Of a stretch of 46,903 nucleotides of DNA, positions 10,426-30,583 are shown piece after piece. The stretch comes from Alistipes sp. (GTDB lineage: Bacteria > Bacteroidota > Bacteroidia > Bacteroidales > Rikenellaceae): assembly GCA_017465055.1 (NCBI GenBank), contig JAFTWZ010000004.1:1-46903 (forward strand), given 5' to 3'. The notes beneath the pieces were generated by a model. It worked only from the letters and a program-made list of their open reading frames with translations, was not told where the DNA came from and made no database searches. The translations under genes were made by a program, and so were the position numbers. The number at the start of each line of letters is the position of its first letter. Position 1 is the first letter of the stretch.

Positions 10426-10490
10426 TAAAAAAATCGTGAATTAAAAGCATTTAGGCGATAAATTGCTACGATAGTTGGCGTGCAGGAGGG

Positions 10491-10858
10491 GTTGGCTTGC
10501 GCGTGGAGGGTTTAAGGGTAGTTCGCGCCTAAAGGCGCTAAAGGGTAGTTCGCAGGCAAAGCCTGCTAAAGAGTAGCTCGCTCGCTAAAGCGAGCAAAGG
10601 GTAGCGAAGGGTAGCGAAGGGAGCAGGTAGGTCGGTGCGGCTAAAGCGTTGTCGCTGGTGTGAGAGTGGTTACTATGAGTTTCGATGGGTTATAATGAGT
10701 TTCTATGACGGAGAGGTTTGTGCGTTAAACCGTTGTCGCAGGCGCTAAACTCCTTAATCTCATTAAGCTCCCTAATCTCCCTTTAGCACCGCAGGTGCGC
10801 TCTACTCTTTAGCTCGCGCAAGCGAGCGAACTACCCTTCTACTACCCTCCCCCAGCAA
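10491..10858. repeat. Mosaic palindromic intergenic repeat, copy 1
   Basis: This 586-bp gene-free gap holds an element with two arms. The left arm repeats the linker TAAAGGGTAGTTC with mini-hairpins GCGCC-TAAA-GGCGC, GCAGGC-AAA-GCCTGC and GCTCGC-TAAA-GCGAGC. The right arm holds the reversed linker (CTACYCTTTAG) with GCACC-GCA-GGTGC and GCTCGC-GCAA-GCGAGC. The core includes CTAAAGCGTTGTCGCTGG and an inserted block of 10-mers (ATGAGTTTCT type), then 9-mers of the CTCCTTAAT type. It has the same orientation as copies 3 and 4. No ORF of credible coding quality overlaps. Confidence 0.8.
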
Positions 10859-10900
10859 CAAAAATCCCGAAGGATGCACTAAAGCGTACAGCCTTCGGGA
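10859..10900 (-). terminator. Intrinsic terminator of the S8/lipoprotein cassette, copy 2
   Basis: On the minus strand TCCCGAAGG (10892-10900) pairs with CCTTCGGGA (10865-10873), followed by TTTTTG. It lies about 40 bp after the stop of the lipoprotein gene at 10941. Confidence 0.75.
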
Positions 10901-10940
10901 CTTAATGCGATGGGCTACAGATGCCCTATAGAGTCGAAAA

Positions 10941-11408
10941 CTACAAGAAAGGAACGAACTCCGAGGCACGTGTGCCCGTAGCCTCCTCCTTAACCTCGTC
11001 GGGAATAGTGCAGGCCTCGTAGATATAGGTTACGGGGTGCTCCTCCTTGCTCTTAAGGGTCATAGTCTTGCCATCCTCGGTGATACCGCCAGTGTAGTCG
11101 CACTTCCAGTCACCACCATCGAAGTAGCTACCCGAGAGCGTGTTGCCACTAACCTTGTACTCGCCATCGTAGAACTTGTAATCGATGCTGTAGACCTGCT
11201 GATAGAGGGCAAACAGACCCGAAGAGAAGCCGATGTAGACGTTAAACTCGGCAGCAACACCATCTACCGACACGAGCTTCCACTCCTGCTCAATATTATC
11301 AAAGCCACCAACCGTTGGTGTATCTTCGTCGCCACCACCCTTCTTATCACAAGCTGTCATTGCCAAAGCGAGCAACGCTACGAGCGACCATATCTTCAAA
11401 CTTTTCAT
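10941..11408 (-). CDS. Lipocalin-like lipoprotein, copy 2
   Basis: From the ATG at 11406-11408 the product has 155 residues and begins MKSLKIWSLVALLALAMTAC, a clear lipoprotein signal. An upstream ATG at 11420 would add MIRD. I prefer the inner one because the paralog at 8322 also begins MKSLKI. The mature part (EQEWKLVSVDGVAAEFNVY, then ALYQQVYSIDYKFYDGEY) has the small beta-barrel look of lipocalin-like lipoproteins. It ends TRASEFVPFL. It follows the second S8 peptidase by 32 bp and ends at a terminator. Pairing with the protease is conserved in both copies, but the function is unknown. Confidence 0.8.
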   Translation of the reverse strand: MKSLKIWSLVALLALAMTACDKKGGGDEDTPTVGGFDNIEQEWKLVSVDGVAAEFNVYIGFSSGLFALYQQVYSIDYKFYDGEYKVSGNTLSGSYFDGGDWKCDYTGGITEDGKTMTLKSKEEHPVTYIYEACTIPDEVKEEATGTRASEFVPFL

Positions 11409-11440
11409 ATCTCGAATCAATTTTTACGTTATTTTTCAGA

Positions 11441-13531
11441 TTACATCCAGCCGCCATTATCGTTAGTATCGCGAACCACGACAACGACCTCCTTCTCCAT
11501 AAGCTTACCACCAGTGGTATTGCCACCACCTACGGTCTTACCGCCAGCGATATACTTAAGAGTAACCATACCGATACCTGCATTCTTAGGTGTGAAGTAT
11601 ACCTTACCACCGAACAAATCGACCTTATCGATACCGAGACGGCTCTTAGTGTTATCGTCAATATCGAAAGAGTTGTAGCCTGTGATAGAGATGCTACCAT
11701 CGCCAACCAATTTAGCGGGATCGAGCTCTATCTCCTCACCCACAATAGCAGGCACACAGATAGTACCGCGCACGCTCTGGATAGCCATCAAGGCATCAAT
11801 CTTACCAGTACCCATCTTGCCCTTGTAGCTATCAAGGCCCATCATATAAGTTGCTGTTTTATCGCCATACACCTTCGTTCCAGTAAGGCGGTTATCTATA
11901 TTACGTACCGATGAGGTAATGATATCGTAGAGCTGAGTATTTGTAAGCGTAATGCCATTCTCAACAGCGTATGAGAGTACCAACGCTGCGATACCCGACA
12001 CGTGAGGACAAGCCATTGATGTACCCTGCATATAACCGTAGTCTGTGCCATACTTTTGTAGGGTTGCTGGGTCTACGGTCTCGGCAGGGATTGTTGAGAG
12101 CACACTACCCTCAAACGCATAGTCAAAAGAGTACTCACCTGTAATCCAAAAATCGCCACCAGGAGCAGCCACGTTACAGCCATAATTATAGTTGGTATAT
12201 GTTGTAGGCAGACCATCTGGAGCATAAGCAGTTACGGCGATAAACTCGTTGTAAGCACCTGGATAGTCGGCAGAGGCCTTAGCGTCGTTACCTGCGGCGA
12301 AGATAACCACATTGCCACGCATTGCCGAGCAGCTGCTCTGGCTTACGAAGTAGCGCAAGCCTGCAAGCTCAACGCCAGCACCGTACTGCTCGTAGTCGGC
12401 ATCGGTAGTGGCAGAGGCAGCAGACTGAGGATAGCCCCACGAGCACTGGAGGATACAAGCACCATTGTCGGCAGCATACTCAGCACCGCGAGCGTTTGTA
12501 GCAAAAGTACTGTTGTCCTCGCCATCGAAGATCTGGATAGACATAATGCGCACGCCATCGCCATTACCTGAGCCACCTGCAACGCCAGCCACGCCGAGGC
12601 CATTGTTGTTTACGGCAGCTACAGTACCTGCTACGTGAGTACCGTGGCCTACATCACCATCCCAATACTTGTTACCCTTAGAGTCTGTCTTGATTGAGCC
12701 CTGATCCCACGAGATATTGCCAGAGAGCTTACCTGAAGCAGAGAGATCTACGCAGTTGACGCCGTAGATATCATCGACAACGCCATTACCATCGTCATCG
12801 ACACCTGGCTGACCATTAAGCTCTGCCTGGTTTTTCCACATATTTGCCTCCAAGTCGGGGTGGTTATACTTAACACCCTCGTCCATCACAGCCACAACAA
12901 TTTGGTTGCTACCTGAGGTATACTTCCAAGCAGCAAAGGCGTTGATATCCTCGCCCTCCTTCGATGTCTTGTAGATAGACTGAAGGCCCTGGTTGTGGTA
13001 GTGCCACTGAAGCTCGAGCATAGGGTCATTGAAAGGCGCGTCGCCATCGGCACGTGTTGCCATACGCTCCTGTGCAGGGCGTGCCGACATCTGTGGACGC
13101 ATCAGTACGGTAGCAAACTCCACACGCTCCACCTCGCTCATCGCTGCGAACTTCTGAGCTACTACATCGATGTCTGCCTCCTTGTCGAATCTAACGACAA
13201 ACCAGCGGTGCATATTCATAGCGCGCTTCTGCTCGCCATTGATATTCATATTAAATACGGGATGTAGCGATGTAGCGCCACAATCGACGTTGAGAGCATC
13301 GATAGCTCCGCTGTCGGAACGTGTTACTGACGCTGCCTGAGACCACACGTCGGCAGTCTCCTCGTCGACATAGAGGATAAGCTCGCCAGGGGCGGCATTC
13401 TCCGAGGTGTTGATAATCTTCTTAGCCACACTCTTCTCTGCTACAACGCCCTCGTCTATCACGGGATCGGTAACGCAGGCTGATGTAAGAAGCGCCACTA
13501 AGGCAAACATTAAAATTCTACCCTTGTTCAT
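11441..13531 (-). CDS. S8 subtilisin-like peptidase lipoprotein, copy 2
   Basis: From the ATG at 13529-13531 the protein has 696 residues with signal MNKGRILMFALVALLTSAC (Cys19). The upstream ATG at 13558 would put extra hydrophobic residues before the signal, so I reject it. The propeptide begins GELILYVDEETADVW. The triad is Asp217 in VAVMDEGVKYNHPDL, His296 in DVGHGTHVAGTVAA and Ser505 in MQGTSMACPHVSG, with Asn415 in FAAGNDA. It is clearly paralogous to the peptidase at 8357, with several loop insertions (for example around 262-290 and 465-495). These may change specificity. The C-terminus is NDNGGWM. It is the first gene of the two-gene cassette. Confidence 0.94.
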   Translation of the reverse strand: MNKGRILMFALVALLTSACVTDPVIDEGVVAEKSVAKKIINTSENAAPGELILYVDEETADVWSQAASVTRSDSGAIDALNVDCGATSLHPVFNMNINGEQKRAMNMHRWFVVRFDKEADIDVVAQKFAAMSEVERVEFATVLMRPQMSARPAQERMATRADGDAPFNDPMLELQWHYHNQGLQSIYKTSKEGEDINAFAAWKYTSGSNQIVVAVMDEGVKYNHPDLEANMWKNQAELNGQPGVDDDGNGVVDDIYGVNCVDLSASGKLSGNISWDQGSIKTDSKGNKYWDGDVGHGTHVAGTVAAVNNNGLGVAGVAGGSGNGDGVRIMSIQIFDGEDNSTFATNARGAEYAADNGACILQCSWGYPQSAASATTDADYEQYGAGVELAGLRYFVSQSSCSAMRGNVVIFAAGNDAKASADYPGAYNEFIAVTAYAPDGLPTTYTNYNYGCNVAAPGGDFWITGEYSFDYAFEGSVLSTIPAETVDPATLQKYGTDYGYMQGTSMACPHVSGIAALVLSYAVENGITLTNTQLYDIITSSVRNIDNRLTGTKVYGDKTATYMMGLDSYKGKMGTGKIDALMAIQSVRGTICVPAIVGEEIELDPAKLVGDGSISITGYNSFDIDDNTKSRLGIDKVDLFGGKVYFTPKNAGIGMVTLKYIAGGKTVGGGNTTGGKLMEKEVVVVVRDTNDNGGWM

Positions 13532-13572
13532 AGTTATTAAAAATTTAAAAATAATCATACCACTTCAAGATG

Positions 13573-13580
13573 CAAATATA
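13573..13580 (-). promoter_or_regulatory. -7 box of the S8 peptidase cassette, copy 2
   Basis: Minus-strand TATATTTG lies 42 bp upstream of the start. The flank TCAAGATGCAAA (plus strand) is shared with the copy-1 promoter. No convincing -33 box was found. Confidence 0.5.
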
Positions 13581-13676
13581 GATAAAATTTTCGGTTGTGG
13601 AAATATTTTCGCCTTTTCTCGAAAAAAAGTTGCATATATGCAAGGATGTTGGTTATGACAGTGTTGATGGTGGTGC

Positions 13677-13987
13677 GTGGGAGGGGGAGAGTAGTTAAAA
13701 GAGTAGTTCGCTCGCTTGCGCGAGCTAAAGGGTAGGGCGCGCCTGCGGCGCTAAAGAGTAGTGCGCACCTGCGGTGCTAAAGAGTAGCTCGCGCCTGCGG
13801 CTCTAAAGGGAGTTTAGTGAGTTTAAGGAATTTAAGGAACTTAACGTCAGCGGCAACGCCACAACCGCACTTGCCTCCCTGCTACCCTCCGCTACCCTTT
13901 AGCAGGCTATGCCTGCGAACTACCCTCCGCTACCCTTTAGCAGGCTCTGCCTGCGAGCTACCCTTTCTTCTACCCCTTCACCACCCA
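13677..13987. repeat. Mosaic palindromic intergenic repeat, copy 2 (inverted)
   Basis: Built from the same modules as copy 1 but in reverse orientation: its core (AACGTCAGCGGCAACGCCAC) is the reverse complement of the GTGGCGTTGTCGCTAACGTT-like core of copies 3 and 4. Left-arm hairpins: GCTCGC-TTGC-GCGAGC, GCGCC-TGC-GGCGC, GCACC-TGC-GGTGC and an imperfect one (GCGCCTGCGGCTC). The right arm has GCAGGC-TAT-GCCTGC and GCAGGC-TCT-GCCTGC separated by CTACCCTTTA linkers. It fills most of the 523-bp gap between the SusCD operon terminator and the S8 cassette promoter. No coding sequence is credible here. Confidence 0.8.
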
Positions 13988-14000
13988 ACGGTGCGAACAC

Positions 14001-14033
14001 AAAACAAGCGGCCCACCCCGAGGGGCAGGCCGC
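14001..14033 (-). terminator. Intrinsic terminator of the SusCD operon
   Basis: On the minus strand GCGGCC (14028-14033) pairs with GGCCGC (14008-14013), with an inner CCCC/GGGG stem. TTGTTTTG follows. It lies 22 bp after the operon's last stop codon. Confidence 0.75.
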
Positions 14034-14054
14034 AAGATCAGGACAATCTAACGA

Positions 14055-16388
14055 TTATCGCTTAAGGGTTGTAAGCTTCATAGAGCCAAGTGGAGTTGCA
14101 GCCATAGGCTTAACAATCTCAACACGCTCGCTCAACGCAGTCTTAACACCTGCATACTCTACCTTGTCAGCAGCAACAGACAACACCTTTGCAGATGTCT
14201 CTGGAGCCTCCTCCTCTACGTAAGGCACGATAGTAGCCTCAGGAGTAAAGCGGAAGTGGAAGTTGCCAGTGAAACTTTGATCCTCTGCAGTGTAATTGAA
14301 GATAGCTGCACCGTAGTATGTCTTAAGAGCCATAGCGCCATCAGCTACAGAGAGCTGGAGAGGAGCCATAGGATTAAACTCAGCATTCTCCGAGCTCTGA
14401 TAAGAGTATACCAATGTTCCCTCCTGGTTGTAGTAACCATAGAGCTTACCAAACTGGCTACCCTCATCCTCGTAGTTGAACAAGATACCATTCATTGTAA
14501 GGATTGAAGTCTCGGGGTTGAAATCGCAATACCAAGACGAACCATCGAATGTTGAGTTAGTCCAGAAGAAGGTAGTATAGCTCTTAGCTGGAACGATAGT
14601 AAATACCTCCTCGTATTCGCCCTCAGTGAACTTGTAAGAGCCTACAGGGAATGTACCATCGTACTTAGGAAGCTCATACTCGATAGTCTTATCTACGTTA
14701 GTGCCGTAGATAGTCTCGAAACGCAACTTAACAACGAAGTTAGGAGTCTCGGCAGTAACGTTGAAGGTCATAAGAGCAGCGCCATTCTCAGCGATCTTTG
14801 CAATAATTGACGATGCATCGCCAGCGTATTCAGCGAAGAGAGTCTCATCATCAACCTTCTGCTGTACCAAAGCCTGAGCATTACCATACCAGAACTTTAC
14901 AGCCTTAAGCTGCGAAGCGTCGGCAACAACCTTGCAAGCTACGTTGAAGCAAGCAGGTTCCTCAGCCTCTACCTCGGCCTTCTTATCCTCCTCGGCGAAG
15001 TATGCTGGAGTGTTAACCTCTACGTTAACCTCAACCTCAGGCATATCACCCGAACCGTTGAAGTAGAAGTTGTAGACAAGAGCATTGTCAGTCTTAGCCT
15101 CGCCCTCAGCAGAGTAAGGAACTGCTACAAGAGTGTAGACACCCTTAGAGAGCTCAACCTCCCAACGCTTAGTCTCGGCATCACCCTCGTAGATCTTAAG
15201 GTCGCTGCTACCAGCTACGATAGCCTCGATAGCATCTGTTGGATCTGCGGTGATATCACCAGGAACGAATGCGAACTTGTAGGTATCAACATCACCACCA
15301 AAGGCGAAGTTGAAGATAGCGCGAGCAGTAGCACCATCAGCCGATACGTACATACCATCGTACGTTACAGCCATATCGTAGTTAACAAACTCGGTGCCTG
15401 GCAAGTAGTACTGCAAGTAACCAGCAGTATTACCCTTACCGAAGTAACCAGCATAACCACCATCCTTGAATGCAGCAAGCTCAACACCCTCTTTAGGGAA
15501 TGAGATAATGCCATTCTTCAAAACTACTGGACCAGCATCCTCCCAAACAAGACAAGCCAAGTCGAAGAGAGTACCGTTCTGGTCACCCACAACTTTGCAA
15601 TTGAGGAATACTACCTGTGCTTTATTACCCTGAGAATCAGTGCAAACCTCACCGAACTTAACGTTGTTAGGGTCGGTAATATCGAACTCAACATAAGTCT
15701 TGGCATCGCCTGCAGTGAAATTGAAGAACTGAGGAACGCCACCCCACATAGTACCGATAGTCTCGGGAGCATAAACGTTGACAGCGCGGATGCGGTTAGG
15801 CGCGAGAGCGTGCTGCTGGAACTCAACATAAGCACCTACACCCTGATATGCCTCACCACCCTCGAGAATAGTCCAAAGGAGGTCATCGAAGTAGATACCC
15901 TGGCCCATAGAGTTCCAAGGCTCAGGAATCATAATAGTGTAGACATACTCCGAAGTAGCATAGCTTGAAGCCTCAGCCTGGTCTACCTGAACGCGGACAG
16001 CGTACTCACGACCAATCTCGAGCTTGCTACCATCGAACTCGATAATGAAATTTGCCTTATCGGCATCAGCATCGAATGACACATTGCGTGGGAAGGTGAA
16101 CAATTCAGCTGCAGTATCGTCGGTAGAGGCAGGAACATACTCTGCACGAACAGTTACGTCGGCAGCCACTGCGGTGTTCATACGACCCACAACGACAGCA
16201 ACAGATTTTGACTCGGCAGTAACCTCGAAGTCTGCAGTGCTGGGCAGATACGCACCCATATTCTTATCCTGAGAACCGGGTGTGTAGTCAGCATACTTGT
16301 GCTCGCACGATGTCAACGTAATGACACCTACGAAGGCAAGAAGCAGATATATAAAATTAAATCTTTTCATACTTTTCTTGTTTTTCAT
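14055..16388 (-). CDS. SusCD-associated surface lipoprotein
   Basis: The 777-residue protein (or 771 from the inner ATG at 16370, MKRFNFIYLLLAFVGVITLTSC) has a lipoprotein signal. The N-terminal Calx-beta/Ig-like segment is about residues 45-150, with ADVTVRAEYVPAS then SFDADADKANFIIEF. Several more beta-rich regions follow. It is third in the operon behind susC and susD (20 bp after the susD stop), where surface glycan-binding or protease-type accessory lipoproteins usually sit. No catalytic motif was recognised, so it is most likely a SusE/F-like ligand-binding partner by position. The specific fold family is not identified. Confidence 0.78.
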   Translation of the reverse strand: MKNKKSMKRFNFIYLLLAFVGVITLTSCEHKYADYTPGSQDKNMGAYLPSTADFEVTAESKSVAVVVGRMNTAVAADVTVRAEYVPASTDDTAAELFTFPRNVSFDADADKANFIIEFDGSKLEIGREYAVRVQVDQAEASSYATSEYVYTIMIPEPWNSMGQGIYFDDLLWTILEGGEAYQGVGAYVEFQQHALAPNRIRAVNVYAPETIGTMWGGVPQFFNFTAGDAKTYVEFDITDPNNVKFGEVCTDSQGNKAQVVFLNCKVVGDQNGTLFDLACLVWEDAGPVVLKNGIISFPKEGVELAAFKDGGYAGYFGKGNTAGYLQYYLPGTEFVNYDMAVTYDGMYVSADGATARAIFNFAFGGDVDTYKFAFVPGDITADPTDAIEAIVAGSSDLKIYEGDAETKRWEVELSKGVYTLVAVPYSAEGEAKTDNALVYNFYFNGSGDMPEVEVNVEVNTPAYFAEEDKKAEVEAEEPACFNVACKVVADASQLKAVKFWYGNAQALVQQKVDDETLFAEYAGDASSIIAKIAENGAALMTFNVTAETPNFVVKLRFETIYGTNVDKTIEYELPKYDGTFPVGSYKFTEGEYEEVFTIVPAKSYTTFFWTNSTFDGSSWYCDFNPETSILTMNGILFNYEDEGSQFGKLYGYYNQEGTLVYSYQSSENAEFNPMAPLQLSVADGAMALKTYYGAAIFNYTAEDQSFTGNFHFRFTPEATIVPYVEEEAPETSAKVLSVAADKVEYAGVKTALSERVEIVKPMAATPLGSMKLTTLKR

Positions 16389-16408
16389 TAATTAGTACCG
16401 ACTAAATA

Positions 16409-18163: not shown

Positions 18164-18184
18164 AATCTTATATATTATTTAAAA

Positions 18185-21830: not shown

Positions 21831-21860
21831 GTTGCGTAGAGAAAATTTTTTGTATATTTG
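21831..21860 (+). promoter_or_regulatory. Promoter of the Oar-like receptor gene
   Basis: TATATTTG (21853-21860) at -7 and GTTG (21831-21834) at -33, 18 bp apart. The start near 21867 leaves a leader of about 200 nt that carries a large inverted repeat. Confidence 0.65.
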
Positions 21861-21900
21861 CAACCGCAAACGGGGACTAAATGGTCTCGGAGCGAGAAAA

Positions 21901-22020
21901 GAAATTGTAGATGAATAGCTAATTTTAGGCTTGCGAAGTGCGAGAAACCGCAGCATACTGGGCGTATGTGAGGATTTCGAGAACGAGCGTAACGACAAAG
22001 TAGCATTCATATACAATTTC
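21901..22020 (+). repeat. Long inverted repeat in the receptor gene's leader
   Basis: A 16-bp arm (21901-21916, GAAATTGTAGATGAAT) pairs with 22005-22020 (ATTCATATACAATTTC) at 15 of 16 positions across 88 bp. Near the centre is a perfect hairpin, CATAC-TGGGC-GTATG (21954-21968). The intervening halves (TGCGAGAAACC and GGATTTCGAGAACGAGC) are imperfectly complementary. It lies wholly in the predicted 5' UTR of the receptor at 22069. It could be a structured regulatory leader or a small palindromic (MITE-like) insertion; the sequence alone does not decide. Confidence 0.6.
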
Positions 22021-22068
22021 TACAAGTTATAAACCTGACACATAAATAGTGTCCCAAAATCCTAATCT

Positions 22069-25000
22069 ATGAAGCGACTGCTTTTGAGTGTCGCACTGTC
22101 TCTTGTCGTGGCAGTGGCAACGGCACAGGTTACTACCTCGTCGGTACGAGGTCGTGTAACACACAACGACAACCCTCTATTAGGTGCTGCGGTAGTAGCA
22201 ACTCACACCCCATCGGGCTCGCAGTATGGAGCATCGACTAATACCGATGGATACTACGCAATCAGCGGAATGCGAGTAGGTGGCCCTTACACCATAACAA
22301 TCTCATACATAGGATATAACGACGCTGTGTTCGAGGATATATCGCTCGGCATAGGAGAGGCTATGGAGATAGACGCCGAGCTTACCGAGAGCTCAATAGA
22401 GCTTGACAACATAAACGTCGTGGCATTCTCGGCAAGGCTGCGCGACGTGGACGACTTCTCGCGCGCTGAGATGGAGGTGATACCCTCGATAGACCGCTCG
22501 ATATACGATCTGACAAGCATTATGTCGTCGGCCGTAGCCCCTGCGTCGGGAGGTATAATACTCGGAGGCCAGAGCACGCGATACAACGCCTTCAGCATCG
22601 ATGGCACGCCTTCGGCCGATATCTACGGATTGGGCACTACGGGAATGACTGGCTCGCTAACCGAGGCAAACCCCATACCGCTCGATGCGCTCGAGAGAGT
22701 GACCATATCGACGTCGACGGTAGATGTGAGTGAGAGCGGCTTTACGGGGGGCGCTATCAAGGCGGTAACGCGCTCGGGAAACAACGAGTTCGAGGGCTCG
22801 GCATATACCTACTTTAATAATGAGCACTTCTGGGGCACGACGCCTGGCAGGGGTGTAGAGGAGCGCACGCCTCTCTCGGAGCAGATGACAAACATCGTAG
22901 GCGTAACGTTCGGAGGCCCGATAGTTAGAAATAAGCTCTTCTTCTTCGCGGCAGGAGAGTTCAACCGCAGCGTGACACCCTCGACAAACCACCCCACCAC
23001 GGGCAATGCGGCACTCACGCTCGACGAGGCAGAGAGGATAGCCGAGCGTTACGAGGCGCTCACAGGCTACGACGGTGGCGGCTATGGCGAGCACAGCGTA
23101 CTGGCGCTCACAGGCTCGGCAGTGGCACGTCTCGACTGGAACATCAACAGCGGCAACCACCTATCGCTGCGCTACAATATGCTTCACGCCGATGCCCACG
23201 ACTCGGCAAACACGCTGCAGTCGTTCTACTTCACAGGCGCCGAGTACACGAACATCAACCGCACACACTCGGTAGTTGCCGAGCTCAACTCGTCGAACTA
23301 CCATAAGGCCGTAGAGCGCAACATCTCGAACACGGCGCGCATAGGCTACACACGTCTTACGGATGGTCGCACCACGCCCGAGAGCCTCCCTGCGGTGATT
23401 ATCAACGGCCTCGGCGAGCGCGGCAATGGCTCGGCGACGATAGGCACAAACCCTTACTCGGGCTGCAACGTGCTCAAGCAGGATGTATTCATCTTTGGCG
23501 ACGACCTGCACATCCAGGCGCCAGGACTACACTACATAACCATAGGCACGTCGAACGAGATATATCGCGCCGACAACCTATACTTGGCCAATGCGCGCGG
23601 CACCTACACCTACAACACGCTCGAGGACTTTGTGGCCGACAACGCCTCGAAGTATCAGTATGGCTACTTCGCCGACGGCAGGCGCAACCTACCTATAACC
23701 ACGGGACAGTTTGCCGTATATGCTCAAGATGAGGTGATAACGAGCCTCGGAAAGCTCACGTACGGTCTGCGCGTAGACATCCCCGTGATGTTCAACACCC
23801 CCGTAGCCAACGAGGCGTTCAACAGCAGTGCTTTTGTGGAGAGGTATGGCACGAAGACGGGCGACATACCACGCGCTCAGGTGCTCCTCTCGCCACGTAT
23901 CGGCCTGGAGCGTAGCATAGCAGCGGGCCTGAATCTACGCGCCAGCGCAGGCATATACACTGGTCGCATACCCTTCGTATGGCTCTCGAACTGCTACCAG
24001 AATACGGGTCTGCGCTCTACAAGCGTGACGGTGAACGACCCTGCGGCGACGCCCGACTTCAGCCTTAACCCCGAGAGCATCGGAATAATGAGCAACCCCG
24101 CCATCGACATCGTGTCGGAGGATTTCCGCTACCCACAGGTGTTCCGCGCGGCGCTCGGCTTGGAGTATAGCTATCGCGGCCTGCGCCTAAACCTCGATGC
24201 CGACTACTCGAAGGGCATAAACAACATCTTCGTCGAGAACCTCGTGGCCGAGGATAGTGGCCGAAAGCTATACGTCGGAGGCGAGGGCAGCGACGTGGCG
24301 GCCACATACTACAACGCTACGACCAGCGACTTCTCGGCGGTATATCGTCTGAGCAATACGCAGCGAGGATACTCGTGGTCGGCAACGGCACGTGCCGAGT
24401 ACGCCTTTGCAGGGACGCTGGAGGGTCTGCGCCTCGTGGCAGCATACACCTACTCGCAGTCGAAGAGCGTAAACGACGGAGTCTCGGCACAGTCGTCGTC
24501 GAACTGGGGACGCACCTATGCCGTAAATAGCAACGCCCCAGCGCTGAGCAACTCGGTATATGAGTTTCCGCACAAGGTGGTGGCCTCGGCAAGCTACACA
24601 CGCCGCTACGGCCTCTTTGGCACGCGCGTGATGCTGCTCTACAACGGCTTCTCGGGCGAGCACTACTCGCTGACGTATGCTAAGGGTAAGGTTGACGTCA
24701 ACGGCGACTCGTACAAGGGTAACTCGCTGATATACATACCCACCGAGGCGGAGATGCCGACTATGTTGTGGGCCGATGACAGCTCACAGGCGGCCTTTAA
24801 CGACTATATCGAGGGCGACAGCTACCTACGCACGCACCGTGGTAGGTTTGCCGAGCGTAACTCGCACTCGCTGCCCTTTGTGCACCGCCTCGACCTGCAC
24901 GTTGCGCAGTCGTTCTACTTCTCGAAGAGCAGCGACCGCCGCATAGAGCTATCGCTCGACGTGCTCAACCTCTCGAACCTCATCTCTCGCTCGTGGGGTT

Positions 25001-25167
25001 TGGTACACCGCACGACAAACTGGGCACTCTCGCCCGTCACGGTCACCGAGCTACGCGAGGTGGAGGGTGGCTACCGCCCAGTATATAAGTTCAACGGCGC
25101 GAGCTACACGGTCGACGACATCGCCTCGAGATGGCATATGCAGATAGGCCTGCGCGTGGTGTTCTAA
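22069..25167 (+). CDS. Oar-like TonB-dependent receptor
   Basis: This outer-membrane protein has 1032 residues. The signal peptide MKRLLLSVALSLVVAVATAQ is followed by a carboxypeptidase-regulatory-like domain (VRGRVTHNDNPLLGAAVVA, then TNTDGYYAISGMRVGGPY). A plug domain comes next (about 110-250; ILGGQSTRYNAFSIDG, then SGFTGGAIKAVTRSGNNEFEGSAY). A long barrel ends in MQIGLRVVF, with the terminal phenylalanine of an outer-membrane barrel. The plug's GG-A-I-x-x-V-T-R-S-G-x-N-x-F-x-G-S motif marks the Oar-like group, which differs from SusC in usually lacking a SusD partner; none is present here. The substrate is unknown. A predicted promoter and structured leader precede it. Confidence 0.93.
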   Translation: MKRLLLSVALSLVVAVATAQVTTSSVRGRVTHNDNPLLGAAVVATHTPSGSQYGASTNTDGYYAISGMRVGGPYTITISYIGYNDAVFEDISLGIGEAMEIDAELTESSIELDNINVVAFSARLRDVDDFSRAEMEVIPSIDRSIYDLTSIMSSAVAPASGGIILGGQSTRYNAFSIDGTPSADIYGLGTTGMTGSLTEANPIPLDALERVTISTSTVDVSESGFTGGAIKAVTRSGNNEFEGSAYTYFNNEHFWGTTPGRGVEERTPLSEQMTNIVGVTFGGPIVRNKLFFFAAGEFNRSVTPSTNHPTTGNAALTLDEAERIAERYEALTGYDGGGYGEHSVLALTGSAVARLDWNINSGNHLSLRYNMLHADAHDSANTLQSFYFTGAEYTNINRTHSVVAELNSSNYHKAVERNISNTARIGYTRLTDGRTTPESLPAVIINGLGERGNGSATIGTNPYSGCNVLKQDVFIFGDDLHIQAPGLHYITIGTSNEIYRADNLYLANARGTYTYNTLEDFVADNASKYQYGYFADGRRNLPITTGQFAVYAQDEVITSLGKLTYGLRVDIPVMFNTPVANEAFNSSAFVERYGTKTGDIPRAQVLLSPRIGLERSIAAGLNLRASAGIYTGRIPFVWLSNCYQNTGLRSTSVTVNDPAATPDFSLNPESIGIMSNPAIDIVSEDFRYPQVFRAALGLEYSYRGLRLNLDADYSKGINNIFVENLVAEDSGRKLYVGGEGSDVAATYYNATTSDFSAVYRLSNTQRGYSWSATARAEYAFAGTLEGLRLVAAYTYSQSKSVNDGVSAQSSSNWGRTYAVNSNAPALSNSVYEFPHKVVASASYTRRYGLFGTRVMLLYNGFSGEHYSLTYAKGKVDVNGDSYKGNSLIYIPTEAEMPTMLWADDSSQAAFNDYIEGDSYLRTHRGRFAERNSHSLPFVHRLDLHVAQSFYFSKSSDRRIELSLDVLNLSNLISRSWGLVHRTTNWALSPVTVTELREVEGGYRPVYKFNGASYTVDDIASRWHMQIGLRVVF

Positions 25168-25189
25168 GAGAGAGGGCGGCGCGTGAGGG

Positions 25190-25457
25190 TTGGCGCGTGA
25201 AAGATTAAGAGTAGTTCGCGCCTGCGGCGCTAAAGAGTAGCTCGCAGGCAAAGCCTGCTAAAGGGTAGCTCGCTCGCTAAAGCGAGCTAAAGGGGAGTGA
25301 AGGGAACAGGCTGCTTTGTGCGGTTGTGGCGTTGTCGCTAACACTAAACTCCTTAAACTCCTTAAGTTCCTTAAACTCCCTTTAGCACCGCAGGTGCGAG
25401 CTACCCTTTAGCGCCTTTAGGCGCGAACTACCCTTTTACTACCCTTTAACTCCCCCC
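25190..25457. repeat. Mosaic palindromic intergenic repeat, copy 3
   Basis: This fills the 317-bp gap between the receptor and the BspA-like gene. Left arm: GCGCC-TGC-GGCGC, GCAGGC-AAA-GCCTGC and GCTCGC-TAAA-GCGAGC, each preceded by a TAAAGRGTAGYTC linker. Core: GTGCGGTTGTGGCGTTGTCG, then nonamers of the CTCCTTAAA type. Right arm: GCACC-GCA-GGTGC and GCGCC-TTT-AGGCGC in reversed linkers. It has the same orientation as copies 1 and 4. Confidence 0.8.
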
Positions 25458-25484
25458 AAAAAACCGACACAACAGTCCGACACT

Positions 25485-27566
25485 ATGAAGATAAGATTTG
25501 ACATATTGATGCTCGTCATCACACTTACGACCTTATTGGCGTGCAGCAGCGAGAAGAGTCAGTTTGGCATCCTCTTCGACCAGGCGTGCGATATGACCTC
25601 GCCATACGACCACGCGGGCGAGGTGCGCACCTTCACATTCAACGCCACGACAGCGTGGAGCGTGACTACAGAGGCCGAGGCCTCGTGGCTCGGCGTAGAG
25701 CCCAGCGCGGGAGAGGCAGGATTCGGGCAGTTTAACATCGTAGTCGACGAGAACACATCGTCCGAAGAGCGGTACGCACACGTCGTGGTACGCTCTGGGG
25801 GCGAGAGCCTAAGCATAGAGGTTGTGCAGCAGCGAAAACCGATATTCGAGCGCGAGGAGATGGAGGTATACACCATAGGCGCCGAGGGTGGCACAATAGA
25901 TATCGACATAGCGACGAATAAGGAGTACACCATATCGATAGCGACGACCGAGAGGTGGCTAACGGCCGAGGTGGAGGCTACGCGAGCGCTCAGGAGCGAG
26001 AGGATAACCTTTGCGGCCACGCCCAACGACGGGGAGCTGGCGCGCGTGGCGATGGTGAGCATAGTATCCTCTGATGGCGCGGTGCTCGACACCTTCGACA
26101 TAGTGCAGGCTGCGGAGCATAGCGCGACAAACGAGATAGTATACCACACCGACGACAACACCCTTGCTGCGCTAAGCACCGTGGCGGCCGAGGAGTATGG
26201 CGCCGAGCTGCGCTGCCACTTCTACGACGCCGAGCGAGCCTGCTACCGTATGGTCTTTGGCAGTAACGTCAGGCGCATCCCCGAGCGCTGCTTTGCCCAG
26301 CAGAGCCACATCACACAGATACTCCTCCCCGAGAGGCTCGAGGCGATAGCCAGTGGCGCTTTTGCCGGGTGTACGGGGTGTCACCGCTTCGTAATACCGC
26401 GCCGCGTGACGACCATAGGTAGCGCTATATTCGAGGGGTGCGCAGGGGTGCTCATCACCGAGTGTAACATACCGAGTAGCGACGCCACGGCCACGGAGTC
26501 GGGACACTGGCTCTACGGCTCGGCCTTCGACCACGTGGAGGTGCGTGGCAAGGTGGGAGCGCGAGCATTCAGCGGCTACGGCCTGCGTAGCGTAACCTTC
26601 GGCGAGGGTGTCGGCGCGGTCTCAGTAGAGGCCTTTGCTGCGTGCGGCGCTCTCGAGAGCGTATATGCCCCCTCGGTAGCCTCGTGGTGCGGGATAAACT
26701 TCGGCAATGGCGAGGCCAACCCACTCAATAGCGGCAACGTAGCGCTCATCATTGACAACGAGGTACTCACGGCGCTCGACGTTGACAGCGAGGTGGAGGC
26801 CATAGGCCCCTACGCCTTCTACAACTATGTGGCGCTCGAGAGCATAACCCTCGGCGACGGGGTGAAATCTATAGGTCGTGGGGCTTTCGAGCTCTGCGAC
26901 GCGAGGAGCATAGCGCTCGGCAGGGGTATCAGGAGCGTAGGTCGCGGGGCGCTATATGGCTGTCGGTGCGACGTGCTGAGCATAGCATTTACGCTTCCCG
27001 ACTTCGGCTACGACGCCACAAGTGCGAGCCACTGGCTCTGGGGCATCGAGGCGGAGAGCATAGTGATAGGCGACGGCGTGACTGCGATAGGGAGCCTTGC
27101 GCTTAGCAACATCGCGACGCTGCGTAGCGTGACCATCGAGGGCAGCCTCTCCGAGCTCGGCGAGGGAGTCTTTGCCAACAACGCCAGCCTCGAGCATATA
27201 TCGTTAGTGTCGGGCCTCGAACGCCTCAGCAGACACACGCTATATGGCTGTTGCGCGCTTGTCGAGGTGCACCTGCCTGCGAGCATCACGACCATCGAGG
27301 AGTATGCACTGCAGGGTTGCAGCGCGCTGAGGAGCATATATATGGGCCCTGCGGTGAGCTACATCGGCAACTACGCCCTGCAGGGGTGCTGCGCCCTCAA
27401 GACGCTGCATATCGCCGCCACTACGCCCCCGACACTCGGTGGTAACTACGCCCTCGACACCAGGAGTGCAAGCCTTGTCGTCTACGTGCCAGCCTCGGCA
27501 CTCGAGGCCTACCGCACGGCCGAGGGGTGGAGCTCGCTAAGGTGCAGTGCGCAGACTGAAGAGTAG
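25485..27566 (+). CDS. BACON-domain, BspA-type leucine-rich repeat lipoprotein
   Basis: This surface lipoprotein has 693 residues. The signal ends TLLAC (Cys20). Two BACON-type beta domains follow: about 30-120 (ATTAWSVTTEAEASWLGVEP; ending EVVQQRK) and about 123-212 (EEGGTIDIDI-like, ending DTFDIVQA). Residues about 220-690 are BspA/LRR_5 repeats, recognisable as x-I-x-x-x-A-F-x-x-C-x-x-L units. Examples are IASGAFAGCTG, IGPYAFYNYVALESITLGDG and IEEYALQGCSALRSIYMG. Such proteins bind host or polysaccharide ligands at the cell surface. No catalytic domain was seen. The gene has its own upstream gap filled with repeat copy 3 and no clear -7/-33 pair. Confidence 0.88.
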   Translation: MKIRFDILMLVITLTTLLACSSEKSQFGILFDQACDMTSPYDHAGEVRTFTFNATTAWSVTTEAEASWLGVEPSAGEAGFGQFNIVVDENTSSEERYAHVVVRSGGESLSIEVVQQRKPIFEREEMEVYTIGAEGGTIDIDIATNKEYTISIATTERWLTAEVEATRALRSERITFAATPNDGELARVAMVSIVSSDGAVLDTFDIVQAAEHSATNEIVYHTDDNTLAALSTVAAEEYGAELRCHFYDAERACYRMVFGSNVRRIPERCFAQQSHITQILLPERLEAIASGAFAGCTGCHRFVIPRRVTTIGSAIFEGCAGVLITECNIPSSDATATESGHWLYGSAFDHVEVRGKVGARAFSGYGLRSVTFGEGVGAVSVEAFAACGALESVYAPSVASWCGINFGNGEANPLNSGNVALIIDNEVLTALDVDSEVEAIGPYAFYNYVALESITLGDGVKSIGRGAFELCDARSIALGRGIRSVGRGALYGCRCDVLSIAFTLPDFGYDATSASHWLWGIEAESIVIGDGVTAIGSLALSNIATLRSVTIEGSLSELGEGVFANNASLEHISLVSGLERLSRHTLYGCCALVEVHLPASITTIEEYALQGCSALRSIYMGPAVSYIGNYALQGCCALKTLHIAATTPPTLGGNYALDTRSASLVVYVPASALEAYRTAEGWSSLRCSAQTEE

Positions 27567-27590
27567 TGGAAAGGGTGGAGACGGCAGGGA

Positions 27591-27716
27591 GCGCAGGGAA
27601 ATTAGAGACCACAGAGACGCAGGGACGCAGAGACAACAGAGAAAGATGATAGCCGACTTCGTTGTTGTCTCTCTCGTCTCTCTCGTCCCTGTTGTCTCTC
27701 TCGTCTCTGTAGTCTC
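27591..27716. repeat. AGAGAC/GTCTCT palindromic repeat, copy A
   Basis: The left half is made of 9-bp units AGAGACNNN, the right half of GTCTCTNNN units (GTCTCTCTC, GTCTCTGTA and others). The asymmetric centre is AAGATGATAGCCGACTTCG, so the whole is an imperfect palindrome of about 125 bp. The reverse-complement copy at 28434-28557 matches it almost base for base in the outer 60 bp. It sits between the BspA-like gene and the DUF6549-like gene (convergent), so it may also act as a terminator. Confidence 0.8.
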
Positions 27717-27732
27717 TTCCCGTCCCTTTCGT

Positions 27733-28380
27733 CTACCTCCCTAACTCTATATACTCGCTATATACTAATCGCGTGTGCGGATTCGAGCTCCACACCTCCT
27801 GGCGTATGCCCTTAGTGCCGAAACGGAAGAAGAGAAAGCGTCGGGGCACGCGATGCACTACCTGCCGCAGGGTATCAACCATCTGATAATCAAGATTTAG
27901 CGTATCACCACGCAGAACTCCAGCGATATGCAGCCACGGCGTCGTATAGGTAAAGCGCCGCTGGCTCTCGCGCACATCGTGCATATCCTGCACATCCTGT
28001 CTTTGTCGTCCCAGCAGCGTGCTATCGTGCTGACTTTGAGGCATTATGGCTGCGGTATCGGAGGTTATCGGTATAGTGAGGGCTACCGAAGTCACGGTAG
28101 CGGCGGTGGCGTAGCTCTCGACGCGCCTTAGGCGCAGGCCGAGCGAGCGTATCTGCTCGGTGTCGTGGCGGCGCTCGCGGCGCAGCTCGCTGATGGTCAG
28201 CTGCATACGTGCTACGGAGGCGGCCGAGGCGTCGAGGCGCGTGCGGTAGTAGGTGATGCCCTCGTCGAGTGCCGCGATGTTGCTCCTCAGGCGGCGGTTG
28301 TCGCGCGCAAGGCTCAGGATTACTGCCCCTGCCACCACCGTGGCGGCAACAAGCAAAAGAAGTGTTGTAAGGTGTTTCAT
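27733..28380 (-). CDS. DUF6549-like membrane-anchored coiled-coil protein
   Basis: The 215-residue protein starts at the ATG on 28378-28380 (MKHLTTLLLLVAATVVAGAV), with one N-terminal membrane segment. A long heptad-like helix follows (about 25-95; LRSNIAALDEGITYYRTRLD, then ISELRRERRHDTEQIRSLG). The C-terminal domain contains LHIAGVLRGDTLNLDYQ and a final VYSEYIELGR. I assign it to DUF6549 by resemblance; such proteins recur in Bacteroidetes mobile elements and prophages, and their role is unknown. A longer frame runs upstream to 28671 but lies in repeat sequence, so I reject that start. It is bracketed by inverted copies of the AGAGAC repeat, so its context is unusual. No promoter was recognised. 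Confidence 0.6.
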   Translation of the reverse strand: MKHLTTLLLLVAATVVAGAVILSLARDNRRLRSNIAALDEGITYYRTRLDASAASVARMQLTISELRRERRHDTEQIRSLGLRLRRVESYATAATVTSVALTIPITSDTAAIMPQSQHDSTLLGRQRQDVQDMHDVRESQRRFTYTTPWLHIAGVLRGDTLNLDYQMVDTLRQVVHRVPRRFLFFRFGTKGIRQEVWSSNPHTRLVYSEYIELGR

Positions 28381-28433
28381 AGGTTTTAGGTGTTTAGTGG
28401 TTGGCTGGGGGTGAGGGAAGAGACGATAGGGAT

Positions 28434-28557
28434 GGAAGAGACTACAGAGACGAAAGAGACGGAAGAGACGAGAGAGACAACAACGAAGTCGGGCATCATC
28501 TTTCTCTGTTGTCTCTGCGTCCCTGTGGTCTCTGTGGTCTCTAATTTCCCTGCGCTC
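28434..28557. repeat. AGAGAC/GTCTCT palindromic repeat, copy B (inverted)
   Basis: Reverse complement of copy A, with centre CGAAGTCGGGCATCATCTTTC. Together the copies flank the DUF6549-like gene on both sides, separated by about 720 bp. It ends at the last codons of the RepA-like gene. Confidence 0.8.
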
Positions 28558-29747
28558 TACCCCTCCCCACTCGTCACACCTGTCACACTTGTCACACCTG
28601 TCACACTGGGGTACGCCCCTGTGACATTGTGACATTGTGACACCGTGACAGGCTCGGTCGCAGCAACACATACCAGATTATCGCGCGCAATAAGCTCGCC
28701 CCTATCGATAAGTCGCTTGATGCGCATCTGCGCCGTAGTGCGACTAAGAGAGAATAGACTCTCTATCTTATGTGTCAGCGTAGCGCGCTCCACAGCACCG
28801 CCATACTCGCTACGTAGAAGCTCTATGATGCGGTCGCCAGGTCGCTGCGACAAGTTCTGGGGCACGTCGCAGAGCTGCGGGATACCCTCCTCCGAGACGC
28901 GGAACGCAAAGCGCTCGAAGGGCTCGTTACGGCAGAACTGAGGCTCGACAATAGAGCACTCGCCGTTACGATGCACGTAGATGACACTCTCGGCCTTACG
29001 TTGCAGCGCCGAGCCGAGGTGACCACGCGCCTTGTCGCTACCAGGATTGGTATGCAACACACAGAGTATGTGTGTATTAGTCTTGGTACTGAGCGACATA
29101 AGCTGACCTACCAGCGCATCGCTCTCCTCGAGGTCGTTGGTGTTGCGCTGCAGGTCGGCGATACCGTCTATCACTATCAGGTCAACAGGATAGTGATATA
29201 TGGTCTCTAACATTATTGTATAACGCTCCTGAGGCGATAGCTCGCGGAGCGTGAGCGTCGTGAGGTTAGGCTCGGAGACTAACCCTGCACGCTTGGCACC
29301 CGTCATCGTCGAGATGCGGTCTACCACCCTGCGCACGTGACGCTCACCCTGCTCGGTATCGACCCATAGAACGTTGATATTCATATTTTTAGCAACGTTC
29401 TGGAAGTTGTCGAGGCCGTTGTAGGGTATGGCCATTGCCGAAGCTACGAGGGCCGAGGCAAGGAATGTCTTCTTGCTCTTTGCCTCGCCACATATGGCCG
29501 AGATGTTACCGCGCGAGCAGACGCACGCCCCATCGATAGATATCAGTGGCTGCTCCTCGGGTAGAGGCTTATCCATATCTATAATATATGGTTGAATAAG
29601 TGCCTCTACACGGTCAAACTCCGCAGCCTTGAGTAGCGTCTGATTGGTGTTAGGCAGTAAAAATTTGAACTTAGGGGGCTCCGCAGTGATGCCCTCTACC
29701 CCACTGGTGCTCTGTGGCTCAGTAGGCATTGTGTCGGTTGTACTCAT
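28557..29747 (-). CDS. RepA-like AAA ATPase of mobile-element type
   Basis: The 396-residue protein has a P-loop variant GEAKSKKT in ISAICGEAKSKKTFLASAL, a Walker B-like VDLIVIDGIADL, and HILCVLHTNPGSDKARGHLGS, the AAA_25/RepA pattern. These are replicative-helicase-like RecA-fold ATPases found on plasmids and integrated elements. A winged-helix-like C-terminal part (about 310-365; LSRTTAQMRIKRLIDRGELI) may bind DNA. The last 25 or so residues are repetitive (VTGVTSVTGVTSGEG) because the gene end runs into the GTCACA repeat at 28571-28652, suggesting the repeat replaced or extended the original end. Promoter at 29966-29997. No relaxase is near, so it is likely an orphan remnant. Confidence 0.75.
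   Translation of the reverse strand: MSTTDTMPTEPQSTSGVEGITAEPPKFKFLLPNTNQTLLKAAEFDRVEALIQPYIIDMDKPLPEEQPLISIDGACVCSRGNISAICGEAKSKKTFLASALVASAMAIPYNGLDNFQNVAKNMNINVLWVDTEQGERHVRRVVDRISTMTGAKRAGLVSEPNLTTLTLRELSPQERYTIMLETIYHYPVDLIVIDGIADLQRNTNDLEESDALVGQLMSLSTKTNTHILCVLHTNPGSDKARGHLGSALQRKAESVIYVHRNGECSIVEPQFCRNEPFERFAFRVSEEGIPQLCDVPQNLSQRPGDRIIELLRSEYGGAVERATLTHKIESLFSLSRTTAQMRIKRLIDRGELIARDNLVCVAATEPVTVSQCHNVTGAYPSVTGVTSVTGVTSGEG
28571..28652. repeat. GTCACA/TGTGAC palindromic repeat, copy A
   Basis: Tandem 9-bp units (GTCACACCT, GTCACACTT) form one arm. GTGACATT 8-bp units form the other. The centre is CACTGGGGTACGCCCCTGTG, a GC hairpin. It encodes the C-terminal tail of the RepA-like protein. 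It is the reverse complement of 30074-30178, with high identity through the centre. Confidence 0.8.
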
Positions 29748-29818
29748 AATTCTAAGTGTTACGTGTTGGTTTATAGGTTTGTATATGCTGTTGTTAGTGT
29801 TGCGTGCTTTGGGCGCTG

Positions 29819-29944
29819 TGGGTTACTATGGGTTTCGATGGGTTATAATGAGTCTCTATGACGGAGAGGTGTGTGCGTTAACCTCGTAGTCGCTTACATA
29901 GTAACTCATATTACCCCATCTTAACTCATATTACCCCATCGTGG
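29819..29944. repeat. GGGTTACTAT palindromic repeat
   Basis: The left arm (29820-29859) is made of 10-bp units such as GGGTTACTAT, GGGTTTCGAT and GGGTTATAAT. The right arm (29897-29941) has the reverse-complement type ATAGTAACTCATATTACCCC repeated. The block from 29820 to about 29890 is nearly identical to an insert in the core of mosaic repeat copy 1 (about 10662-10735), and copy 4 carries a similar block. It lies in the RepA-like gene's leader. Confidence 0.7.
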
Positions 29945-29965
29945 CTTAGCACCACTACCTCGCTG

Positions 29966-29997
29966 CAAATATACAATATTTAAACACGTTTGTCAAG
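29966..29997 (-). promoter_or_regulatory. Promoter of the RepA-like gene
   Basis: Minus-strand TATATTTG (29966-29973) at -7 and TTG (29994-29996) at -33, 20 bp apart, inside an AT-rich stretch. The leader of about 210 nt would contain the GGGTTACTAT palindrome. Confidence 0.6.
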
Positions 29998-30073
29998 TGT
30001 TTTGATAAATATTTTTACTTTACGAGTTAATTTTCTGTACTCGAGTGTTTTGGGGGTAGTTGCTGATGGGTGT

Positions 30074-30178
30074 TGTCACGATGTCACAATGTCACACTGT
30101 CACAGGGGTGTGGCCCAGTGTGACAGGGTGTGACAAGTGTGACAGGGGGTGACAAGGGGGTGACAGGGGGTGACAGGG
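30074..30178. repeat. GTCACA/TGTGAC palindromic repeat, copy B (inverted)
   Basis: Units of GTCACAAT and GTCACACT type on one side, TGTGACAGG and GGGTGACAG types on the other, centre CACAGGGGTGTGGCCCAGTG. It is an inverted copy of 28571-28652, so the two bracket the RepA-like gene. It abuts mosaic repeat copy 4. Confidence 0.8.
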
Positions 30179-30179
30179 G

Positions 30180-30583
30180 GGCTTGCGCGTGAAAGATTAA
30201 GGGTAGTTGAAGGGTAGGGCGCAGGCAGAGCCTGCTAAAGGGTAGCTCGCTCGCTAAAGCGAGCTAAAGGGTAGCGAAGGGAGCAGGGAGCTTTGTGCGG
30301 CTAAAGCGTTGTCGCTGGCGAATGAATGGGTTACGATGAGTTGCTATGAGTTACTATGGGTTACTATGACGGCAGGGGTGGTGCGGTTGTGGCGTTGTCG
30401 CTAACGCTAAACTCCTTAAACTCCTTAAGTTCCTTAAGCTCCTTAATCTCATTAAGCTCCTTAATCTCCCTTTAGCACCGTAGGTGCGCTCTACCCTTTA
30501 GCGCCTTTAGGCGCGAGCTACCCTTCTACTACCCTTTAGCTCGCGCCAGCGAGCGCCCTACTCTTCAACTCCCCCTCCCCCAG
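30180..30583. repeat. Mosaic palindromic intergenic repeat, copy 4
   Basis: Left arm: GCAGGC-AGA-GCCTGC and GCTCGC-TAAA-GCGAGC with AAGGGTAG linkers. Then comes a block of 10-mers (ATGAGTTACT, ATGGGTTACT), the shared core GTGCGGTTGTGGCGTTGTCG and seven CTCCTTAAN-type nonamers. Right arm: GCACC-GTA-GGTGC, GCGCC-TTT-AGGCGC and GCTCGC-GCCA-GCGAGC. It has the same orientation as copies 1 and 3. With the other repeats it fills the 1001-bp gap before the NifU-like operon; no gene is seen there. Confidence 0.8.

Follow-up and report, generated by a model that had tools for sequence, protein, structure and literature searches.

We analysed a stretch of 46,903 nucleotides from Alistipes sp. (contig JAFTWZ010000004.1, here called the window) and found in it four intergenic elements built to one design from small hairpin modules, as originally predicted. 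The elements belong to an abundant, fast-changing family, dispersed over the genome, that resembles repetitive extragenic palindromes (REPs) in the arrangement of bacterial interspersed mosaic elements (BIMEs). REP-like repeats are usually explained via the REP-associated tyrosine transposase (RAYT). No RAYT was found in the genomes of this genus that we searched; in related species a quite different gene, encoding a protein with a four-helix-bundle suffix domain, is flanked at one gene junction by a pair of arrays in direct repeat. We tentatively propose, short of calling it probable, that this is a REP/BIME-like family whose source locus carries the helix-bundle protein in the place of RAYT and whose modules turn over via their linkers.

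A dispersed family of hairpin arrays

The module consists of RGTAG, three nucleotides (NNC), a stem mostly of 5-7 bp, a loop mostly of 2-5 nt, the returning stem and TAAAG. An element has an arm of plus modules, a core with short tandem repeats and an arm of minus modules, with the two arms facing; element 2 presents the entire plan in reverse. The four predicted stem types (GCGCC, GCACC, GCAGGC and GCTCGC) were all present, as were the core and its nonamers. The predicted number of about 21 modules was also right: there were 21 in all, of which 19 had perfect stems and were found by a script. Two imperfect ones were added by eye: in element 1 the third module, which has CAAAGG after its stem, and in element 2 the fourth, whose stem is mismatched. 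A twentieth script row (30385-30412) was a chance match inside a core and was dropped from the count. Elements 1 to 4 hold 5, 6, 5 and 5 modules, respectively. The core was exact at 25318 and 30381, had one mismatch at 13851 (minus strand) and occurred as a CTAAAG variant at 10635 and 30295. Structure prediction gave z-scores of -8.4 (RNA) and -7.3 (DNA) for element 3 and -5.9 (RNA) for element 4; in the predicted folds of both, the linkers pair arm with arm and the hairpins protrude.

The window is contig C39 of a draft genome (2,130,381 bases, 49 contigs, 84.41% complete). In this genome the linker TAAAGRGTAGYTC occurred 69 times and the core, with at most two mismatches, 22 times, while both reversed-pattern controls gave 0. 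The modules are therefore not unique to the window. A slightly wider pattern detected 79 exact module pairs, 63 of them within the 224,437 bases examined first. From these bases we took 203 candidate inserts between linkers, regardless of pairing; 144 had a perfect stem of at least 5 bp (shuffled mean 3.3), and in a second set such stems were present in 221 of 301 inserts (shuffled 3.7). There were 37 element clusters in the examined stretches. Thirty of them did not overlap a called gene by more than 30 bp, and the seven that did were put down to lenient words or poor open reading frame calls. A recurrent left end, GCTKGCGCGTG..AAGRGTAG, accounted for 23 of 40 matches to its pattern, the remaining matches being modules or unlisted.

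Cassette shuffling had been proposed for these elements. The modules are indeed interchangeable, and they are gained and lost between identical linkers; their order in the window's genome, however, is not freely shuffled. The common left arm reads GCGCC-GCAGGC-GCTCGC, an order kept also in tandem or inverted duplicates (two tandem copies in locus L069 and three, reversed, in L087), and the other arm is more variable. Up to six modules run in one direction, and nine in the L087 tandem.

Other species carry other stems on the same linker (GCAAGC, GCCCGC, GTGCC, GCTGC, GAGAGC, GAGCC and others). We compared 48 distinct inserts of fixed length, picked regardless of pairing, and observed six pairs in 43, five in 4 and four in 1. 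Paired cells reached 99.0%, against 82.1% when shuffled and 18.8-46.2% when slid; 42 cells were changed on both sides (8.3 expected), and covariation was 0.443 against 0.106. Related sequences easily exceed shuffles, and the slid control matters most. Such two-sided changes are predicted by selection and by quasipalindrome correction alike; PMC7202029 describes template switching that turns imperfect hairpins perfect.

Modules that face each other seldom had equal stems. The stem class was the same in only 3 of 50 head-to-head inner pairs (1/17, 2/15, 0/14, 0/4), where 10.7 were expected from a random draw and 9.8 given the inner frequencies; these pairs are non-independent because of block copying. 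In other REPs a preference for heterodimers is tied to escape from palindrome cleavage, according to a part of PMC3733652. Neighbours on the same strand had equal stems in 9 of 80 cases in the window's genome (22.2 expected), 1 of 46 in Rikenellaceae bacterium SIG185 (10.6) and 0 of 24 in the others (4.5). A rule that all stems along an arm differ was nevertheless rejected, since it is true in three groups and fails in RGIG2147.

Among 84,980 species genomes, a set from which near records of the window's genome may be excluded, the module-pair pattern gave 47 stretches. All were in metagenome-assembled genomes (MAGs), namely Alistipes sp. RGIG4198, RGIG5329, RGIG2147, RGIG6253 and RGIG213 and the above SIG185. 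Of 180 genomes of the genus, which may be Cryptobacteroides or the RC9 group, 7 contained the linker frame, a slightly wider pattern (79, 57, 54, 10, 9, 4 and 2 matches; controls 0); of 392 other genomes sampled from the order, none did. G numbers were assigned to named MAGs through identity of the matched sequences. The module-pair pattern was absent (0) from viral contigs, and a viral origin of the arrays was rejected. The six other bearers are among 36 genomes, the window's own included, that match a 1161-aa protein of the latter at 87% or more. On a tree of 30 genomes, which holds all of these other bearers but G037, the bearer label needs 4 changes, at least 3 of them forced (3 and at least 2, respectively, when G149 is removed), and the window's genome and SIG185 are sisters (support 100/100). 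RGIG4198 (G149) was not itself counted as a bearer: it has only 2 matches, in a stretch identical to the window's genome, intergenic DNA included, and another of its genes is only 91% identical. A misbinned contig or a recent transfer would account for this stretch. It is locus L101, identical to L070 of the window's genome, and other genes of the MAG differ.

In species without the frame, G149 included, we looked for clusters of at least four close hairpins in 47 loci (219,843 bases). Four clusters were found in three places, in G011, G039 and G185 (two of the four represent the same place), and 0 in shuffled sequence; the criterion is insensitive, as it finds 9 in 177,534 bases of the window's genome. 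These clusters share the stem words GCAGGC, GCAAGC, GAGAGC and GCACC with the frame-bearing species.

Arrays were also compared at orthologous gaps. Sixteen loci of other species have a gene matching one near an element of the window's genome. Eleven carry an array at the same junction; one (L101) is the identical sequence, and four have a different or undecided junction. At 10 of these 11 junctions the species have different stem classes, and at the eleventh (L084/L124) both arrays have GCAGGC and GCTCGC with different loops and middle. This count is biased, as both sides were fetched because they bear arrays. We also sampled SIG185 blindly (343,281 bases, containing 8 elements) and found a flanking ortholog there for seven elements of the window's genome. 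The junction held an array in three (L079, the second of L084, and L096; p = 0.004 at 5% and p = 0.014 at 8% chance occupancy, the occupancy being guessed) and none in four (L080, the first of L084, L083 and L095, the neighbourhoods of the last two being different). Junction L080 spans about 80 bp in SIG185 and 512 in the window's genome. The gap of element 2 was without modules in five of six relatives (G040, G039, G011, G021, G017) and held a remnant in G058. Arrays are present or absent between sister genomes, and shared junctions hold mostly different module sets. Even without the helix-bundle link, module turnover can be seen directly at junctions common to as many as six species, and these junctions allow testing whether palindromes are perfected by selection or by replication-templated correction.

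Two side observations concern the arrays of the window's genome. They are often adjoined by another dispersed intergenic repeat (TTGTTGTCAAAAG, CAACGCTCGGCAAAAATGCCGTCGATGGG; L069 at about 610-757, L071, L086, L088, L095). The start of contig C1 (L069) and the end of C41 (L098) both lie inside the same left-arm sequence, and the genes flanking them are side by side in SIG185 (L133), which suggests that the assembly broke within an element. As a practical point, no fewer than two of the assembly's contig ends fall in an element.

A gene between two arrays at one junction

Six species (the window's own, SIG185, RGIG2147, RGIG5329, RGIG213 and RGIG6253) have an array at one and the same junction, upstream of and within about 110 bp of a stretch that is nearly identical among them, ACATTGTTCGTTTATTCAAAAAT..TAACTTTG; the RGIG6253 contig begins inside its array. 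We examined the junction in 20 genomes and observed a gene of 183-186 codons in six of them (SIG185, RGIG2147, RGIG5329, RGIG213, G185 and G039). G185 and G039 have the gene there without the frame, together with other linkers (TTTAAGGGC; TTGAAGGGC, TTGGAGGGGC). In each of these six genomes arrays stood on both sides of the gene. The two flanking arrays formed a direct repeat, with 82-97% identity over 66-265 bp (SIG185, 83.6% over 183; RGIG2147, 82.3% over 265; RGIG5329, 84.4% over 256; RGIG213, 84.3% over 255; G185, 96.9% over 163; G039, 87.9% over 66). In five of the six, SIG185 being the exception, the flank pair within the genome outscored the same flank compared with the other five species, as is predicted by homogenisation within genomes.

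Gene and arrays occurred together. The junction was readable in 19 genomes, with both present in 6, arrays only in 2, neither, as we read them, in 11 and the gene only in 0 (Fisher p = 0.001). A single hairpin was seen there in G058, and weaker hairpins and no gene in G011. Low-copy bearers had 19 of their 23 module pairs at this junction (G161, 4/4; G037, 10/10; G135, 5/9). In RGIG2147 (L127, about 5887-5912) the helix-bundle gene takes its last codons and its stop from the outermost linker, GGTAAAGAGTAG.

The flanked protein matched TIGR04258 (four helix bundle suffix domain) above the 40-bit cut-off in all five cases tested (69.7, 60.7, 69.4, 54.0 and 52.5 bits) and TIGR02436 above 24 bits, also in 5/5. 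Matches to PF05635 (23S rRNA-intervening sequence protein) had E values of 4e-8 to 1.4e-5, and the cut-off of 33.8 was reached in 1/5. Sequence matches in PDB were weak, the best relevant one being 2gsc_A (E = 0.018 and 0.089). The wider helix-bundle family includes the Avd protein of diversity-generating retroelements. To our knowledge, the widespread four-helix-bundle family has no assigned function, and we know of no link between the four-helix-bundle/23S intervening-sequence family and dispersed hairpin arrays.

A search for relatives of the protein gave 0 in phages, 1 in plasmids and 1 in viral contigs. The latter (39%) is flanked on both sides by a 45-nt direct repeat, 84% identical. A relative in Prevotella nigrescens (40%) has palindromic 10-bp repeats (CCTAGTATCCCTAGGGTTCCTAGG) at L274 3195-3248, just 3' of the gene. 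BLAST placed this repeat at 5 places in the record, yet there was a single site within 50 kb, and we did not take the repeat to be dispersed.

Explanations of spread and turnover

In the REP/BIME-like reading, the elements would be composites of two facing arms of GTAG-tagged hairpin modules with a species-specific middle between them. The source locus in related species would be the one gene junction at which the helix-bundle gene lies between two direct-repeat arrays. The protein would act in trans as their partner, filling the position of RAYT in REPtrons, and arrays would spread from this junction and seed others. Resident arrays would persist, with modules copied, lost and exchanged via identical linkers by slippage, recombination or gene conversion. 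Through this exchange each genome would homogenise its own module set, and the stems would stay perfect through selection or hairpin-templated correction. The window's genome looks as if the stretch between two arrays, including the gene, had been lost from the junction. If true, the helix-bundle link would give the protein family a function and provide a second route to REP-like repeats. A further-reaching version has the protein running the system: it would recognise folded modules and promote their copying and homogenisation genome-wide, linkers and stems would co-evolve in each species, and facing arms would avoid equal stems. This version we regard as rather doubtful.

Several observations weigh against a role of the helix-bundle protein or against the turnover proposed. 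In the window's genome, which has the most modules (79 pairs), the junction holds an array without the gene, and the gene was not found in the approximately 248 kb of this genome that were searched. The p value of the association is overstated, as one junction in related species is at least partly one evolutionary event. Moreover, G149 has three irregular hairpins at the junction, and if these are counted as an array the table becomes 6/3/10. The blind-sample junction count is small (3/7). In RGIG2147, unlike the other groups, same-strand neighbours share stems more often than expected (19/91, 11.9 expected). The P. nigrescens relative has its palindromic repeat on the 3' side only. Finally, we know of no biochemical activity by which a four-helix bundle could move DNA.

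Alternatively, the gene would be a bystander, caught between two resident arrays; recombination and replication slippage, with no other factor, or else an unknown enzyme would spread and homogenise these arrays. We consider this unlikely, though it is the alternative that survives best. It would explain the turnover of modules at shared junctions, the tandem duplication of whole arms, the presence or absence of arrays between sister genomes and the many arrays of the window's genome that have no such gene nearby; template switching as described in PMC7202029 would perfect the hairpins. It fits poorly with the gene lying between direct-repeat arrays also in species with unrelated linkers (G185, G039), and with low-copy species holding their modules mainly at the gene junction.

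The original prediction offered bidirectional terminators or mRNA-end stabilisers as possible roles. In that case the arrays would function in RNA or transcription, and selection would retain them at their junctions. Two-sided stem changes, the strong folds of elements 3 and 4 and the shared junctions agree with this. Using gene calls made by a simple script, we had both neighbours for 27 of the 37 clusters: 9 were in divergent, 12 in same-direction and 6 in convergent gaps. All gaps longer than 150 bp in these stretches, those of the elements among them, numbered 17, 34 and 10, respectively, so there is no 3'-end bias. Element 2 comes after a strong terminator (14008-14033), between it and the 5' end of a subtilase gene. 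An intrinsic bidirectional terminator would have a T run after a GC hairpin, at the 3' ends of genes. None was found in elements 1 and 2, the two tested; the search gave three weak matches, two of them overlapping, with tails CTACTCTTTA, TACTCTTTAG and ACCCTTTCTT. Some junctions have no element in the sister species. We therefore do not favour transcript ends as the main function and consider this explanation improbable.

True REP/BIME repeats (REPINs) mobilised by a RAYT that has been lost or whose gene the assemblies lack are more improbable still. The GTAG 5' of the hairpin, the intergenic position, the many copies and the inverted pairing all recall them, and REPtrons can be lost, as a part of PMC3733652 states. 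However, the RAYT-like transposase that the original prediction suggested looking for was not found: Y1_Tnp (PF01797) gave 0 matches in the window's genome, in 60 genomes of the genus (several 96-99% complete) and in six frame-bearing MAGs, all of them drafts, RGIG5329 being counted in both sets. The same search matched 31 of 40 genomes from other families of the order. In addition, the tag stands 3 nt off the stem and often reads GTTG in RGIG2147, RGIG5329 and RGIG213.

It is just as improbable that the arrays are non-autonomous transposons similar to miniature inverted-repeat transposable elements, moved in trans by an unrelated transposase: copies are dispersed, differ between sisters and share the recurrent left end, but ends, length and content vary widely, junctions read by eye have no obvious target duplication, and the AAA_25 gene next to some elements does not track them. 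This helicase-like gene was rejected as a linked mobiliser, being present in 4 of 7 bearers and 10 of 13 non-bearers.

Features of the window and known repeat systems

Table 1. Elements, modules, cores and repeat arrays in the window.
Feature	Position	Strand	Remark
Element 1; left end GCTTGCGCGTG, three + modules, core, 10-mers, second core-like stretch, nonamers, two - modules	10491..10858	+	
Element 1 module GCGCC(T)	10516..10543	+	script
Element 1 module GCAGGC	10543..10571	+	script
Element 1 module GCTCGC, CAAAGG after stem	10571..10600 (end approximate)	+	by eye
Element 1 core variant GTGCGGCTAAAGCGTTGTCG	10635..10654	+	
Element 1 module GCACC	10781..10806	-	script
Element 1 module GCTCGC	10807..10835	-	script
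Element 2, inverted	13677..13987	-	between terminator 14008-14033 and start of S8 peptidase gene 11441-13558
Element 2 module GCTCGC	13702..13730	+	script
Element 2 module GCGCC	13730..13756	+	script
Element 2 module GCACC	13757..13782	+	script
Element 2 module GCGCC, imperfect stem	13783..13808 (ends approximate)	+	by eye
Element 2 core, one mismatch	13851..13870	-	
Element 2 module GCAGGC	13897..13924	-	script
Element 2 module GCAGGC	13935..13962	-	script
Element 3	25190..25457	+	
Element 3 module GCGCC	25210..25235	+	script
Element 3 module GCAGGC	25236..25263	+	script
Element 3 module GCTCGC	25263..25292	+	script
Element 3 core, exact	25318..25337	+	
Element 3 nonamer array	25345..25379	+	
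Element 3 module GCACC	25380..25405	-	script
Element 3 module GCGCC(T)	25406..25432	-	script
Element 4	30180..30583	+	divergent gap, upstream of NifU_N gene 30749-31441
Element 4 module GCAGGC	30212..30240	+	script
Element 4 module GCTCGC	30240..30269	+	script
Element 4 core variant	30295..30314	+	
Element 4 10-mer array TTACTATGAG	30326..30369	+	
Element 4 core, exact	30381..30400	+	
Element 4 nonamer array	30408..30469	+	
Element 4 module GCACC	30470..30495	-	script
Element 4 module GCGCC(T)	30496..30522	-	script
Element 4 module GCTCGC	30534..30562	-	script

The window holds other short tandem repeats at 27667-27734, 28418-28542 and 30098-30180, consisting of 9-mers (GTCTCTCTC/AGAGACGAA) and 10-mers (GTGACAGGGG). 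Similar 9-mers are present also in the S8 gap of relatives without modules. On the minus strand the DUF6549 gene (27733-28671) and the AAA_25 gene (28557-29747) share 115 bp, and a paralogue of the latter lies between two elements in L069. The low-GC region 32000-46000, with AAA_24 (weak Sak4-like PHROG match), DUF3871 and a tyrosine integrase (42709-43980), looks like a remnant of a mobile element or prophage.

The original prediction knew of no described family with this structure. No catalogued match was found: Rfam gave 0 at the gathering threshold over the window, with two sub-threshold matches for 10401-14100, and we found no description of the arrays in the open-licence literature, where some of the searches concerned other questions. 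In design, the arrays nonetheless come near a described class that the prediction did not name, GTAG-tagged REPs in a BIME-like arrangement.

With GTAG-tagged REPs, BIMEs and REPINs the arrays share short palindromes with a 5' GTAG-like tag, intergenic position, many copies and lineage specificity. As in GTAG REPs, a palindrome of about 20-40 bp carries an unpaired 5' tag and exists in many intergenic copies (69 linkers; 30 of 37 clusters clear of genes in the above sense), and as in BIMEs, inverted units are able to fold together (elements 3 and 4). Facing partners with unlike stems are reported for REPs as heterodimers in a part of PMC3733652, which is a further likeness. The arrays differ from GTAG REPs in the distance and variation of the tag described above, in having several stem types on one linker and in running so many modules in one direction.

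With REPtrons they share a gene flanked by repeats at one locus. In a REPtron, however, this gene is the cognate RAYT (Y1_Tnp), while here it encodes a four-helix-bundle suffix protein, the flanking arrays are direct repeats, and other linkers are used elsewhere in the genus. The protein is related by its profile matches to the 23S rRNA intervening-sequence proteins (TIGR02436, TIGR04258, PF05635), but the locus differs from that element in lying between protein-coding genes, not inside 23S rRNA. CGTC-tagged REPs, described in a part of PMC3733652 as palindromic repeats without a dedicated transposase, are alike in the latter respect and have another tag; this likeness is by description, not by array anatomy. 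In summary, the arrays work like REP/BIME repeats and are not RAYT-associated REPs, since tag, palindrome, copy number and inversion are alike, while the Y1 match and the flanked gene are not.

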